From Roseivirga sp. (GTDB lineage Bacteria > Bacteroidota > Bacteroidia > Cytophagales > Cyclobacteriaceae): a DNA stretch of 64,000 bases. Under the pieces are notes generated by a model that saw only the letters and a program-made list of their open reading frames with translations, was not told the DNA's origin and did not search any database. This document shows positions 10,251 through 52,675 of this stretch, in pieces. A program made the position numbers and the translations under genes. Numbering within the stretch: the stretch's first letter is position 1; each line of letters opens with the position of its first letter. The stretch is taken from assembly GCA_029262895.1 (NCBI GenBank), contig JAJCYM010000020.1, positions 1 through 64,000 on the forward strand, written 5' to 3'.

Positions 10251-11483
10251 TTAAAAATCAAGAATCACCTGTTTTCTGGTGAGGTCCTCCATAGTTTCCC
10301 GTTCTCGAATAAGTCTGGCCTCACCATTATGAATCAATACTTCGCAGGGCCTAAATCTGGAATTATAGTTAGAAGCCATACTGAAACAATAAGCTCCGGC
10401 ATTCTTTACGGCAATTAAATCACCTATGTTCACCTCGGCCATTTTCCGATCGCTGCCGAATGTGTCCGTTTCGCAGATGTATCCAACCACGGTGTAGATT
10501 CGCTCTTTGCCACCAGAATTAGAGAGGTTGATCATTTCATGATAAGCATCATACATCATTGGCCTAATGAGATGATTGAGGCCAGAATTAACGCCAACAA
10601 AAACCGTGGCCGGTGTCTCTTTGACCACATTAGCCTGGGTAAGTAAATAGCCCGCCTCGCTCACCAGGAATTTCCCCGGTTCAAACCATAACTCAAGATC
10701 TTTGCCATAGCCAGCACAAAAGGATTTGAAAGCAGCCGATATTTTGCTTCCAACCTCCTCCATATCTGTAGTAATATCTCCTTCTTTATAAGCAACCTTA
10801 AAACCACTTCCTAAGTCCAGAAAACCAAGGTTTTCAAACTTTTTGGCCACATCGAACAAAATGTTGGCAACGGTCAGGAATACTTCCGCATCCAAAATGT
10901 CGGACCCGGTATGGATATGTAGTCCGCGAACATCAATTCCATATTCCTTGACTGTATCTAGAATTTTGTCCAAATGATAGACAGATATTCCAAATTTAGA
11001 TCCTGCATGGCCTGTAGATATCTTCTTATTGCCTCCTGCCATCACATGTGGGTTCAGGCGAAGCCCAATAGGTATGCTACCCCCAAATTTCTCTCCAAAT
11101 TGTGCAAGGATTGAAAGGCTGTCCAGATTAATCTTCACCCCTAGGGCTACTGCCTCTTCTATTTCTTCTAAGGCAACACCATTGGGAGTGTAAAGAATTT
11201 CTTGGGGCTGATAGCCAGCCATTAGTCCCAAATATACCTCTTGGATCGAAACACAGTCCAAATCAGAACCATAGCTTCTGAGCAACTTTAAGATAGAAAT
11301 GTTAGTCAAGGATTTGGCCGCAAACTTAATTTTCAAGTTTACATCTCCAAACGCCTGCGAAATGACCTCATACTGCTTTTTGATCTTTTCAGCATCATAA
11401 ACATAAGTGGGTGTGCCAAACTGTTCGGCCACTTCTTTAAGTTTAACGCCCTGTACCTGATATTCTCCTCCAATCAATTCCAT
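10251..11483 (-). CDS. lysA: Diaminopimelate decarboxylase
   Basis: PLP fold-III motifs 'KFAAKSLTN', 'HIHTGSDI', 'EPGKFLV', 'CETDTFGSDR'. Confidence 0.92.
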   Translation of the reverse strand: MELIGGEYQVQGVKLKEVAEQFGTPTYVYDAEKIKKQYEVISQAFGDVNLKIKFAAKSLTNISILKLLRSYGSDLDCVSIQEVYLGLMAGYQPQEILYTPNGVALEEIEEAVALGVKINLDSLSILAQFGEKFGGSIPIGLRLNPHVMAGGNKKISTGHAGSKFGISVYHLDKILDTVKEYGIDVRGLHIHTGSDILDAEVFLTVANILFDVAKKFENLGFLDLGSGFKVAYKEGDITTDMEEVGSKISAAFKSFCAGYGKDLELWFEPGKFLVSEAGYLLTQANVVKETPATVFVGVNSGLNHLIRPMMYDAYHEMINLSNSGGKERIYTVVGYICETDTFGSDRKMAEVNIGDLIAVKNAGAYCFSMASNYNSRFRPCEVLIHNGEARLIRERETMEDLTRKQVILDF

Positions 11484-11581: not shown

Positions 11582-12631
11582 TTATTCAATAATCACTCGT
11601 TTGGTGAGTGAACTGTTGTTTTGAATTACCTGAAGAATATAAATTCCTTTTCTTTTGCCAGTCAAGTCTACTTTGAAAGAGTATTCTCCTGAAGCCAACT
11701 GGTCTGATTTATCATAAACCACACCTCCGTCAGGGTTGATCACTTTTACCTGCACAGGGCTATCGTTTCCAGTACTCACATCAACAGTAAATCTGCCGTT
11801 GCTTGGGTTTGGATAGAAACTGATGTCTCTGATTTCCAACTCATCCATTTTATCGGCACCAACCTTCTGTTTGTCTGCTTCCCTTGCAGAGCGCACAAAG
11901 ACCTTGACTCTCGAAATTACTTTGAATCCATCTTCATCATCCTCATCACCTGATCGAAAGTGGAAAATTCTTCCATTATCGTCCCAATCACCAAAGTCCA
12001 GATCAAAATCGAAATCAAACTTATCCATTTGCTCACGTAGCCTCTCTCTCAATGATTCAATGTCTTCAAAATCATCACCATTAAAATGAAATGATTTGCC
12101 TCGATTACCAAAATTAAAGTTATGTCTTAGGGAATCTATGTGTATTCCGAAATCATCGTCATCAAAATTGAAACTAAAGCCATTACCGAAATTTCTGAAG
12201 TGATTCCTAAAATTGGAACGCAGGGAATCCGCATCAAAATTGAAGAATATGGAGTTACCCTCATCATCATCGTCATCAAAGCCATTTCCGAATCCTTTTC
12301 TGATAAAGAAGTTGCTTCCATTGGAACGGAAATTGAGGTTGCCCTTGCCAAAGCTCAGGTCATCCACATTTACACCATACTCTTCCAAGTCAGGGTCATC
12401 CGCTATAGCCTCATAGCTATCATATGTCTTTTCAAAAATCTTAGAATCGTCACCACTTTTAGTAACAATCTTAAGTTTCACCTTTCCTCCGTCAAGTGTG
12501 GTGAATGAAATTGATCTGCTCTCATTAACTGATCTGTCCTGCGCAGTTGCAAGCATTCCGAGACCAACCAGAATGTTTAATGCGAAAATCAGGAGTATTC
12601 TTGTTGCGTTGTTTCTTGTCGACCTATCCAT
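11582..12631 (-). CDS. Asp/Phe-rich secreted protein with T9SS type A C-terminal sorting domain
   Basis: Signal peptide; low-complexity 'SFNFDDDDFGIHIDSLRHNFNFGNRG'; CTD 'ISFYPNPSNGRFTVDV...GIYILQVIQNNSSLTKRVIIE'. Confidence 0.85.
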   Translation of the reverse strand: MDRSTRNNATRILLIFALNILVGLGMLATAQDRSVNESRSISFTTLDGGKVKLKIVTKSGDDSKIFEKTYDSYEAIADDPDLEEYGVNVDDLSFGKGNLNFRSNGSNFFIRKGFGNGFDDDDDEGNSIFFNFDADSLRSNFRNHFRNFGNGFSFNFDDDDFGIHIDSLRHNFNFGNRGKSFHFNGDDFEDIESLRERLREQMDKFDFDFDLDFGDWDDNGRIFHFRSGDEDDEDGFKVISRVKVFVRSAREADKQKVGADKMDELEIRDISFYPNPSNGRFTVDVSTGNDSPVQVKVINPDGGVVYDKSDQLASGEYSFKVDLTGKRKGIYILQVIQNNSSLTKRVIIE

Positions 12632-12687
12632 AGTTTTACCTTTAATTTGCTCGTTTACGAAAGTATTTATTTAATCAACTGGCTCGT

Positions 12688-12728
12688 GTTAAACCAGAGT
12701 TAAAACATGTTAATTTTTGTTAAACCAG
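12688..12728. promoter_or_regulatory. Array of four phased GTTAA direct repeats, candidate OmpR-family regulator binding site
   Basis: GTTAA at 12688, 12699, 12709, 12719 (periods 11, 10, 10) in divergent intergenic region. Confidence 0.6.
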
Positions 12729-12751: not shown

Positions 12752-12759
12752 TACTTTTG
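12752..12759 (+). promoter_or_regulatory. Candidate Bacteroidota -7 element TACTTTTG for the kinase gene
   Basis: Matches TAnnTTTG; ends 4 nt before ATG at 12764; no convincing -33 element seen. Confidence 0.4.
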
Positions 12760-12763
12760 ATAT

Positions 12764-14347
12764 ATGAGTCACAGGCGAATCAGATGGTTAATTGGGTTGC
12801 TAAGCGCAGCCATGACCGGTTTGATCATTTTCCAGTTTTACTGGATGAGCGATGTTATTCAGGTCAATAAGGAACGCTTTACTCAGAATGTTCAGGGTGC
12901 TTTAAACGAGGTCACTGGCAAGCTAGCCAGGCAAAACGACATCAACTTTCTTCAGCAGGACATGAATGAGATGGTGCCTTACGGCATGGAGCGTATGAAT
13001 GCCATCAGAGACAGCGCTATTGCGTTTAATAGAAATGTTGACAACCGCCAACCTACTTTTCCACCTCAGGATTTCTTCGATCTCAGCACCTTCAAATTTG
13101 AATTCGATGAGGCAACCAATCAGATACAGATATTTTTTGATCTCAGGGGGCTTCAGAACCCTGGGGTTAGAGGGTCAGATCAATCTGCTTTCCAAAACCA
13201 GAGGCAACGACAACTACGGCTAGAACAGCAAATGGCAAGAAGACTGGATGACATGAAGCGTTCGTGGACAGACCATTTGGTGGGTAGTGAAAACGTTTTT
13301 ACCAGATTCAGCCCCGTTTTACTAGATACGCTGTTAAAAATAGAATTCAAGAATAGAGGTATCGCTCTGGACTATGATTATGGCATCATTCAGCAGGGTT
13401 CTGATAAACCGACCTTCATGAATATTGAGAATCAGGACAGTCAAGAAGGCATTCAAAATTCAACGCTCAAAGCAAATCTGTTCCCGATGGATTTGATTCA
13501 AAAAGACTACTACTTGTCAATTTTCTTCCCGAGCCAAAAAAACTTCCTGCTGAAGCAAGCCCTATTACCTCTGTCTGCTTCAGGGCTTCTGATGTTGGTG
13601 GTTATAGGCTGTTTTGCTTATGCCATTATGGTAATTCTAAGACAAAAGAAGTTGTCTGAGATCAAAACTGATTTCATCAATAACATGACCCATGAATTCA
13701 AAACCCCAATTGCCACGGTATCATTGGCAACAGAGGCACTGCTTGATGATGACCTTAAGTCAAGCAAGGGTTTAATTGATCGATACGTGAAGGTCATTCA
13801 GGAAGAAAATAAACGATTAGGTGCTCAGGTGGAGAAGGTGTTGCAGATCGCAAGTCTTGATAAAAAGGACTTTGAGCTTAAGTTTGACAATACTGATGTG
13901 CATGATATTATAGCTGGAGCTATTGTCAACATCGATCTGATGGTAGAAAAACGTGGTGGAAAGGTGACCAGCCAACTTCTGGCCTCCAACCCAATTGTAG
14001 AAGCCGATCAGGTTCACCTGACAAACATCATCAACAATCTTCTGGACAATGCCAATAAGTATACCAAAGAGGCTCCTGAAATTCACATCAGAACCGAAAA
14101 TATTTCAACTGGACTAATCATCAAAATTTCTGATAATGGAATTGGCATGACCAAAGAAGCGATTGAGAAAATCTTTGACAAGTTCTTTAGAGTTTCTACT
14201 GGCAATGTTCATGATGTAAAAGGTTTTGGCCTGGGTTTGTCGTATGTCAAAAATGTTGTGGACATGCACCAGGGGGAAATATCTGTAAAAAGTGAGGTTG
14301 GCAAAGGGAGCACATTTAAAGTATATTTACCTTTCACACATGTCTAA
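12764..14347 (+). CDS. Two-component sensor histidine kinase
   Basis: Two TM segments flanking a sensor region, 'NNMTHEFKTPIATVSLA' HisKA, 'NLLDNANKYTKEAPEI', 'GFGLGLSYVKNVVDMHQG'. Confidence 0.92.
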   Translation: MSHRRIRWLIGLLSAAMTGLIIFQFYWMSDVIQVNKERFTQNVQGALNEVTGKLARQNDINFLQQDMNEMVPYGMERMNAIRDSAIAFNRNVDNRQPTFPPQDFFDLSTFKFEFDEATNQIQIFFDLRGLQNPGVRGSDQSAFQNQRQRQLRLEQQMARRLDDMKRSWTDHLVGSENVFTRFSPVLLDTLLKIEFKNRGIALDYDYGIIQQGSDKPTFMNIENQDSQEGIQNSTLKANLFPMDLIQKDYYLSIFFPSQKNFLLKQALLPLSASGLLMLVVIGCFAYAIMVILRQKKLSEIKTDFINNMTHEFKTPIATVSLATEALLDDDLKSSKGLIDRYVKVIQEENKRLGAQVEKVLQIASLDKKDFELKFDNTDVHDIIAGAIVNIDLMVEKRGGKVTSQLLASNPIVEADQVHLTNIINNLLDNANKYTKEAPEIHIRTENISTGLIIKISDNGIGMTKEAIEKIFDKFFRVSTGNVHDVKGFGLGLSYVKNVVDMHQGEISVKSEVGKGSTFKVYLPFTHV

Positions 14348-15047
14348 ATACAAGTTACTTGTCGTAGAAGACGATCCCAATCTCGGTCAAATTCTGAATG
14401 AATATCTTTCCCTTAAAGGTTACGAGACTACACTCTGCCGTGATGGAGAAGAGGGGGTAAACATGTTCAAACGAGAGCAGTTCAATCTTTGCCTGTTTGA
14501 TGTAATGTTGCCAAAAAAAGATGGCTTCTCCATGGCCAAGGAAATACGCAGAGATGACAAGGAGACACCCATTATCTTCCTAACTGCCAAGTCGATGAAA
14601 ACCGATACAATTGAAGGTTTTAAAATCGGGGGTGATGATTATATCACCAAGCCATTCAGCATGGAGGAATTGCTGCTAAGAATACAGGCCGTTTTAAGAC
14701 GAACTGTGGACAAAAATCCTCAATTCTCAGATCAGAAGGTTTTCGAATTCGGCTCTTTTCACTTCGACTTTGACAAACAAATGCTGAAAGGCCAGGTTGG
14801 AGAGACTAAGTTAACCTCTAAAGAATCCGAACTGCTTCGATTGCTCTGTCTGCACATCAATCAACCCCTTGACAGATCTGTGGCCCTCAAGCTCATTTGG
14901 AGAGATGATAGCTATTTCAATGCAAGGAGCATGGATGTTTATATCGCCAAACTCCGAAAACTATTAAAACCGGATGAGAACATTCAGATCATTACGCTCC
15001 ATGGGTCAGGCTTCAAACTGATCACTGATGCAAAATCAATCGGATAA
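14340..15047 (+). CDS. OmpR-family response regulator
   Basis: Receiver 'LLVVEDDPNLGQIL...LCLFDVMLPKKDGF...FLTAK' plus winged-helix C-terminus; start MSKYKLL overlaps the kinase stop by 8 bp. Confidence 0.92.
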   Translation: MSKYKLLVVEDDPNLGQILNEYLSLKGYETTLCRDGEEGVNMFKREQFNLCLFDVMLPKKDGFSMAKEIRRDDKETPIIFLTAKSMKTDTIEGFKIGGDDYITKPFSMEELLLRIQAVLRRTVDKNPQFSDQKVFEFGSFHFDFDKQMLKGQVGETKLTSKESELLRLLCLHINQPLDRSVALKLIWRDDSYFNARSMDVYIAKLRKLLKPDENIQIITLHGSGFKLITDAKSIG

Positions 15048-50954: not shown

Positions 50955-51998
50955 TCACTGTCCTTGCTCAACCTTATTGATAAACTCAAAAAAGGCCTTG
51001 TCGAATTGCTCCGGCATATCTCGCCAGAGCATCAATCCCAGGTTGTCAAATACCGTAGACGAAAAATTCTTCTTCTCAGAAATTTGCCAATCCTTCAATG
51101 AACCATATCCGGGATTTTGAAGTGATGCACTACTTAATCCCTGCGAATTTCCCTCAGACATTAGTTTCATCAGATTATTTCGAGAGAGGAAATTCGACAT
51201 GATGTGTACGGGGATTTTCACATTCTCTATTAAAGGGCCCAGATCATTTACCATATACTCAATAAAATACCGTTGCTCGATTACTATGGGCTGCCGCGCT
51301 TCCTTTAGTTTTAGTGCTGTTCCCAAGCTATCGTCTTGGGTAAAAAATTGCCCATTAAACATGTTTGAATGCCAGGTGTCCTCGCTCACGCCCTCCCAAA
51401 AGTCAATTGTTTTGACGAGGCGCTTTCGCTGTGCCTGTACATCATATAGTTTGGTTGAGTCCGCATTTTCGGAATTATACCACCTATAATAAGGGCTTCG
51501 AGAAACAAAAAGAGCCCCTTTTAGCAGGTCTGGATACTGGTCAATCATTTGCAGGGCTACGTTCACTCCTGCATACCAAACGGTCATTAAATAGGGCTTT
51601 TCATCAAAGTGGGTTTGAATATAAACCGCTAAATCCTCTTTGAATCTTGAATTCCAGGGCTGCGATTCAAAATCATCTGCCTGATCAGGCCAGGGATAGG
51701 CAGGAGTGCCACCCATACCCGGAGGGGTGATCACATGAAATTTTGCCTTCTCCCAGTTTCTCTCAATAAAGTCCTCATAAAAGTAGCTGCCGTGAGTATG
51801 TGAAGTAATAAGTATGATTGGGGTTTTTCCACTGCCATAGACTACAGCTTTTAGTGAATCGGTGTCTCCAACTAGAACAGTACCTGGCCTGTGGGCAAAA
51901 TTACTACCTGGTGCCTTATTTTTAGCCTGGGAAAAGCACAAAGAGCAGAGTATTATGCCCAAAAAGCATGATATCAAAAATCTATTCCATTTCAACAT
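50955..51998 (-). CDS. Secreted alpha/beta-hydrolase-like protein lacking canonical nucleophile elbow
   Basis: Signal peptide; 'TPIILITSHTHGSYFYEDFIE', 'LMTVWYAGVNVALQMIDQYPDLLKGALFVS' in elbow position. Confidence 0.6.
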   Translation of the reverse strand: MLKWNRFLISCFLGIILCSLCFSQAKNKAPGSNFAHRPGTVLVGDTDSLKAVVYGSGKTPIILITSHTHGSYFYEDFIERNWEKAKFHVITPPGMGGTPAYPWPDQADDFESQPWNSRFKEDLAVYIQTHFDEKPYLMTVWYAGVNVALQMIDQYPDLLKGALFVSRSPYYRWYNSENADSTKLYDVQAQRKRLVKTIDFWEGVSEDTWHSNMFNGQFFTQDDSLGTALKLKEARQPIVIEQRYFIEYMVNDLGPLIENVKIPVHIMSNFLSRNNLMKLMSEGNSQGLSSASLQNPGYGSLKDWQISEKKNFSSTVFDNLGLMLWRDMPEQFDKAFFEFINKVEQGQ

Positions 51999-52053: not shown

Positions 52054-52079
52054 GTTAAGCAGTGTTAATGAGTGTTAAT
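52054..52079. promoter_or_regulatory. Three phased GTTAA direct repeats upstream of the hydrolase-like gene
   Basis: GTTAA at 52054, 52064, 52074 (period 10, 10), 56 bp upstream of start at 51998. Confidence 0.55.
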
Positions 52080-52189: not shown

Positions 52190-52675
52190 ATGGAAATACC
52201 AAAACTCAAAATGGATCGAATGCAGGATGTTAGAAGTTTAAAAAAATTAATTCCGAAGTCGTTTCTAATAATTGTCGCTCTGTGCATTTTTCTAGTGTCT
52301 TGCGAGATTTCCCACTCTGCACTTCAACCGACTAATAACAAAGGAGGCTACACAATCAAATTCAATAGTAGCACGAAAAACAGGTCGGTAAAAGACAGCA
52401 CGGTTATATACGGCCATGTGAAAGACGTTACTACAAAGGAGGGAATTTATTTGGCTAATGTTAATTGGTTTTGCGCCAATACCAGTTCTTCAATTGACGG
52501 CTTTTATAAAATGACTGTGCCTTCAGGCACAAGTCTAACTAGTTATTTGGTTTCTAAAGCTGTTGGCTACCGAACAGTCGAAACCGATACATTTCGAATA
52601 AATGCCGGAGATTCTATACGCTTAAACTTCTTTCTGCAGGCTGATCATCGACCAATCGTCCATTGTGATAACTAG
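52190..52675 (+). CDS. Predicted lipoprotein with single carboxypeptidase-regulatory-like domain
   Basis: Lipobox 'FLVSCE'; 'VIYGHVKDVTTKEGIYLANVNWFCANTSSSIDGFYKMTV'; start codon could be internal. Confidence 0.65.
   Translation: MEIPKLKMDRMQDVRSLKKLIPKSFLIIVALCIFLVSCEISHSALQPTNNKGGYTIKFNSSTKNRSVKDSTVIYGHVKDVTTKEGIYLANVNWFCANTSSSIDGFYKMTVPSGTSLTSYLVSKAVGYRTVETDTFRINAGDSIRLNFFLQADHRPIVHCDN

Follow-up and report, generated by a model that had tools for sequence, protein, structure and literature searches.

Four GTTAA half-sites between an rprXY-type kinase-regulator operon and a divergent exported gene very probably form a composite operator of the response regulator RprY, in which an ancestral autoregulatory pair is joined to a second pair serving the exported gene. 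This reading, drawn from sequence comparisons, concerns the array at 12688–12723 of the window, by which we mean the whole 64-kb stretch of DNA that was analysed. The half-sites occupy 12688–12692, 12699–12703, 12709–12713 and 12719–12723, and their starts are spaced with periods of 11/10/10. The features of the locus are listed below.

10251–11483, minus strand: lysA-like PLP decarboxylase gene, behind the exported gene in the window
11582–12631, minus strand: gene for the divergent exported Asp/Phe-rich protein, 349 aa, with a signal-peptide-like N terminus and a Por_Secre_tail domain
12658–12665, minus strand: −7 element TACTTTCG of the exported gene, separated by 22 nt from the outer half-site, without a −33 TTG
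12688–12703, no strand given: outer half-site pair, GTTAA at 12688 and 12699, period 11
12709–12723, no strand given: inner, kinase-proximal half-site pair, GTTAA at 12709 and 12719, period 10
12752–12759, plus strand: −7 element TACTTTTG of rprX, with 28 nt between it and the inner half-site and 4 nt between it and the ATG (12764)
12764–14347, plus strand: rprX, membrane histidine kinase (HisKA, HATPase_c), 527 aa, from domain matches and orthologs in the family
14340–15047, plus strand: rprY, OmpR-family response regulator, 235 aa, recognition helix FNARSMDVYIAKLRK, from NCBIfam

Identity of the locus and layout of the array

Domain searches confirmed the OmpR-type regulator, the kinase and the Por_Secre_tail of the divergent gene that an earlier note had proposed from the letters of the window. 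The regulator's best hit among 96 NCBIfam matches (18,950 models) was RprY NF051850 (322 bits, E = 1.4e-96, cut-off 370), and because the regulator is closest to RprY, the locus is named rprXY here. The two genes overlap by 8 nt, which fits the expectation for an rprX-rprY operon. In the window's exported protein, the Por_Secre_tail is a C-terminal sorting domain (E = 1.8e-12).

The GTTAA positions and periods in the earlier note were all correct. Read on the minus strand, the half-sites contain TTAAC in four of four cases and TTTAACA in two of four, and the outer pair, as TTAAC, points to the exported gene. The array has the direct repeats with a 10–11 bp period expected of an OmpR/PhoB-family operator. 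The minus-strand −7-like TACTTTCG was also found where it had been placed; its distance from the array, given earlier as 23 bp, is 22 nt (12666–12687). The full pattern, GTTAA-N6-GTTAA-N5-GTTAA-N5-GTTAA, matched once in the window and was absent from 100 dinucleotide-preserving shuffles. In the 5.79-Mb genome it again matched once, with no match for the reversed pattern.

Conservation of the inner and outer half-site pairs

Kinase orthologs were sought in 118 genomes of the window's family, which yielded 81 loci, 77 of them usable; the other four were left out as the stretch gave no usable kinase start. An exact GTTAA-N5-GTTAA pair lies upstream of the kinase in 76 of the 77 rprX orthologs, compared with 0–1 of 77 for each of seven scrambles of GTTAA. 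The sole ortholog without a pair next to the kinase is L208. There, about 700 bp more separate the array from rprX (1060–1845), and four half-sites still stand beside the exported gene. An RprY-like regulator with the helix FNARSMDVYI[ATS]K[LI]RK follows the kinase in 28 of the 29 loci that reach far enough, and this near-invariant recognition helix matches the invariant half-site, which we count in favour of RprY as the binder. Among relatives that include Pedobacter, Mucilaginibacter and Marinilabiliales, 12 loci were inspected by eye, and about eight of them have GTTAA pairs ahead of the kinase gene. The inner pair is predicted to be the ancestral autoregulatory box of rprXY.

The intergenic region is AT-rich, and the repeats could in principle reflect chance or base composition, or a structural element to which no response regulator binds. 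The controls exclude a chance origin: the pattern is missing from all 100 shuffles, control matches number zero in 296 genomes, the scrambled words are as rare as stated above, and register and spacing are strict. Conservation independent of the kinase operon, which would speak for a structural element, was not seen. We therefore regard either version of this explanation as extremely improbable.

Across the phylum, the exact four-site array occurred in 9 of 296 genomes and the reversed pattern in none. Eight of the nine arrays, including that of the window, are flanked by an rprX-like kinase gene on one side and a divergent exported gene on the other, and all eight have TAnnTT at 22 nt. The ninth (L263, 1501–1536) lies between two similar serine-protease-like genes and is unrelated to a kinase.

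The outer pair follows the exported gene. A homolog of this gene is found divergent and next to rprX in 24 of the 77 loci, including other genera; three of these (L204, L219 and L225), which gave no phmmer hit, were counted by position, signal sequence and N-terminal motif. In many genomes without the exported gene, the lysA-like gene is directly divergent to rprX. Every one of the 24 loci that have the exported gene contains at least three half-sites, and 22 of them have four in the 11/10/10 register (L239 among these, with one half-site mutated); the remaining two belong to sister species and have three half-sites each. Where the neighbour is lysA or another gene, 49 of 53 loci have two half-sites. 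The four loci that keep at least three without the exported gene are L183, L188, L205 and L230. A half-site is mutated in L188 and L205, and L230 has only three; on a quick tree, the sister loci of L205 and L230 carry the exported gene, and L183 clusters with a locus that does. The four exceptions would fit decay of the array after loss of the exported gene.

Half-site number and presence of the exported gene were strongly associated (Fisher's exact test with relatedness ignored, p = 4e-16). On the quick tree, 11 changes are needed for each of the two traits, and among independent pairs taken from its supported branches the two changed in the same direction four to six times and in opposite directions never; the corresponding sign test was borderline (median p = 0.06). 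The earlier note had staked its reading on conservation of the array in genomes that keep this neighbourhood, and orthologous loci retaining kinase, regulator and exported gene do keep the array, with its 11/10/10 register and 22-bp spacing to the −7 element. Its idea that one array controls both genes survives in part: the array is conserved with both, but it is composite, with just the outer pair tracking the exported gene. Since the inner pair accompanies the kinase and the outer pair accompanies the exported gene, the array is very probably the regulator's own site serving both.

The description of the divergent gene as T9SS cargo holds for the window's protein and for 17 of the 23 orthologous exported proteins, in which Por_Secre_tail was detected at E < 0.01, but does not extend to the divergent exported proteins of other families, among which no T9SS tail was found. 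Outside the window's family, the exported protein encoded at the divergent position is a repeat protein that is either different from the window's or related to it only remotely. In L264–L270, it is built of VTVTTxENGExxTxxxEGxEAExYL-type repeats, for which no convincing Pfam match was obtained. A profile comparison of the two exported families aligned 14 columns with a probability of 38%. The AlphaFold model of the window's exported protein had a mean pLDDT of 66.5, and its top matches were Ig-like DUF3244 proteins; the model and the structure matches gave no functional clue.

Promoter geometry and predicted mechanism

The rprX promoter has a −7 match of its own, TACTTTTG, which the earlier note had overlooked. 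Of 76 orthologs, 58 have a TAnnTTTG at 27–28 nt from the kinase-proximal half-site, and the gap between the −7 element and the start codon is 4 nt in 46 orthologs. A −7 box ending so close to the start codon suggests that the rprX transcript is leaderless or near-leaderless. On the other side, TAnnTT stands exactly 22 nt from the outer half-site in 19 of 23 exported-gene loci, while the next best distances account for two loci each. A genome search for TTAAC pairs 18–26 bp before a perfect TAnnTTTG returned only two matches; it was too strict, because the −7 element is often degenerate.

From this arrangement we infer the following mechanism. Phosphorylated RprY would bind as head-to-tail dimers to GTTAA half-sites spaced by one turn of the helix. 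The inner pair would serve the rprXY promoter, providing autoregulation, and the outer pair, helically spaced with the inner one, would serve the exported gene, whose −7 element lies 22 bp away without a −33 element. If all four half-sites were occupied, the promoters could be cooperatively coupled. RprY would most likely activate the two of them, and the exported protein, located in the envelope or at the surface, may act in the response to the signal that RprX senses or in feedback on it, as CpxP does for CpxRA. A Pfam search found no CpxP-type domain in the exported family.

It is also conceivable, with a clearly smaller probability than activation, that RprY binds the array and represses one or both promoters, through autorepression or as a divergent switch. 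For P. gingivalis RprY, a dual role as activator and repressor has been proposed (PMC3646045), and the array is near both promoters, in opposite orientation to them. The promoters themselves argue against repression: TTG was found 15–23 bp before the −7 element in only 8 of 58 rprX promoters and 1 of 19 exported-gene promoters, and a −33 TTG that is mostly missing at both is as expected for activator-dependent promoters; moreover, the half-sites lie 22 and 27–28 bp upstream of the −7 boxes and do not overlap them. Activation by RprY therefore remains our preferred reading.

Paralogous systems, known operators and implications

Twelve full-length OmpR-type regulators of the window's genome, each encoded next to a kinase, were compared. 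Eight of them form one clade (support 100/99) with SMDV in the recognition helix, a motif missing from the other four. All eight clade members belong to a kinase-then-regulator operon with a divergent gene, and most products of the divergent genes have a signal-like N terminus. Seven of the eight intergenic regions carry arrays in which three half-sites together match at 13 or more of 15 positions; that of the eighth member, on contig C29, contains scattered half-sites only. We take this coincidence of helix and array within the clade as support for RprY as the binder. A regulator-first operon outside the clade (C3) also has a 13-of-15 array. In the whole genome, looser three-half-site arrays gave 12 matches (9 sites), compared with none for the reversed pattern. 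The earlier note's picture of a self-contained module was not upheld. Seven further kinase-regulator operons (contigs C19, C21, C29, C44, C56, C90 and C101) have a like layout with a mostly exported-looking divergent gene; six of the seven have a TTAAC array, which suggests a module repeated in the genome, and arrays also occur at other envelope genes. The 22-bp rule does not hold for most of the paralogous arrays in this genome, a point against the main reading.

The window itself holds a second, three-half-site array at 52054–52078, GTTAAGCAGTGTTAATGAGTGTTAA, upstream of both an alpha/beta-hydrolase-like gene (50955–51998, minus strand) and a divergent small exported-looking gene (52190–52675). 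A regulon search with TTTAAC-N4-TTTAAC gave 12 genome sites versus 2 for the reversed pattern; none of the 11 sites examined had a clear −7 element at 22 bp, three overlapped reading frames, and no regulon is claimed from it.

Paralogs sharing RprY's recognition helix could also bind at 12688–12723. Taken further, one or more of them might be its main binders or share it, making it a node of cross-talk instead of an RprY-specific operator. The nearly identical recognition helices of the eight clade members and the TTAAC arrays at seven loci favour this view, as do spacers common to several arrays: TTAACACTCATTAAC recurs in the array at 52054, at the C44 kinase/GLPGLI-like locus and at C29:78895, and TTAACAGTAGTTAAC at C101 and C70. 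We nevertheless judge it improbable, given that the pair stays beside rprXY in 76 of 77 genomes and that spacers differ between paralogous loci, which suggests separate specificities. Binding by RprY itself remains the better account.

Operators of this kind are already known. Bacillus subtilis PhoP uses TTAACA repeats with a half-site and period near-identical to those of the array; it differs in phylum and in controlling a phosphate regulon. The Cpx operon is regulator-first, and Cpx differs from the window further in its half-site, in having two half-sites instead of four, and in its exported protein. The CpxR box of E. coli and Yersinia, GTAAA-N5-GTAAA in the cpxR-cpxP divergent promoter (PMC3158067), shares with the array, here by sequence alone, the placement of 10-bp-period direct repeats between the operon of an OmpR-family regulator and a divergent exported gene. 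E. coli ArcA sites hold between two and five direct repeats, spaced by roughly one helical turn, and four-repeat sites are read as two adjacent dimers, with cooperative binding at several promoters (PMC3798270); unlike the window's array, ArcA sites mostly have an 11-bp centre spacing, and they serve a global redox regulon. Within Bacteroidota, the kinase and OmpR-type regulator of Riemerella anatipestifer form one operon (PMC5399024). Its PhoP has the DAP-seq motif TTTAACA, binds upstream of its own operon and has GLPGLI genes among its direct targets (PMC9603813). It resembles the window's system in phylum, TTTAAC core, own-operon site, and envelope and GLPGLI targets, and may be an ortholog or paralog of RprY; neither repeat number and periods nor a divergent exported gene is described there, in contrast to the window's locus. 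The RprXY of Bacteroides and Porphyromonas is probably the same two-component system, judged by best family model, P. gingivalis being without RprX. We found no RprY binding motif in the literature searched, including the RprY papers. The PhoP, Cpx and ArcA precedents make the operator kind a known one; what appears to be new, judged by the literature searched, is its assignment to RprY, the composite structure and the connection with the exported gene.

We advance one generalization tentatively, giving it somewhat less than an even chance: throughout Bacteroidota, RprY-clade regulators may use TTAAC arrays between their own operon and a dedicated divergent exported partner, with half-site number tracking gain and loss of the partner and spacers separating seven or eight paralogous systems in one genome. 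In that case, RprX-type kinases would have a new class of feedback partners in the envelope, namely these exported proteins. RprXY is a two-component system widespread in Bacteroidota, and the footprint described here, which combines a precise predicted operator with the geometry of its promoters and with an exported partner gene inherited alongside it, makes its regulon and signal testable. The operators with four, three and two half-sites offer a natural series for how operators gain and lose targets.
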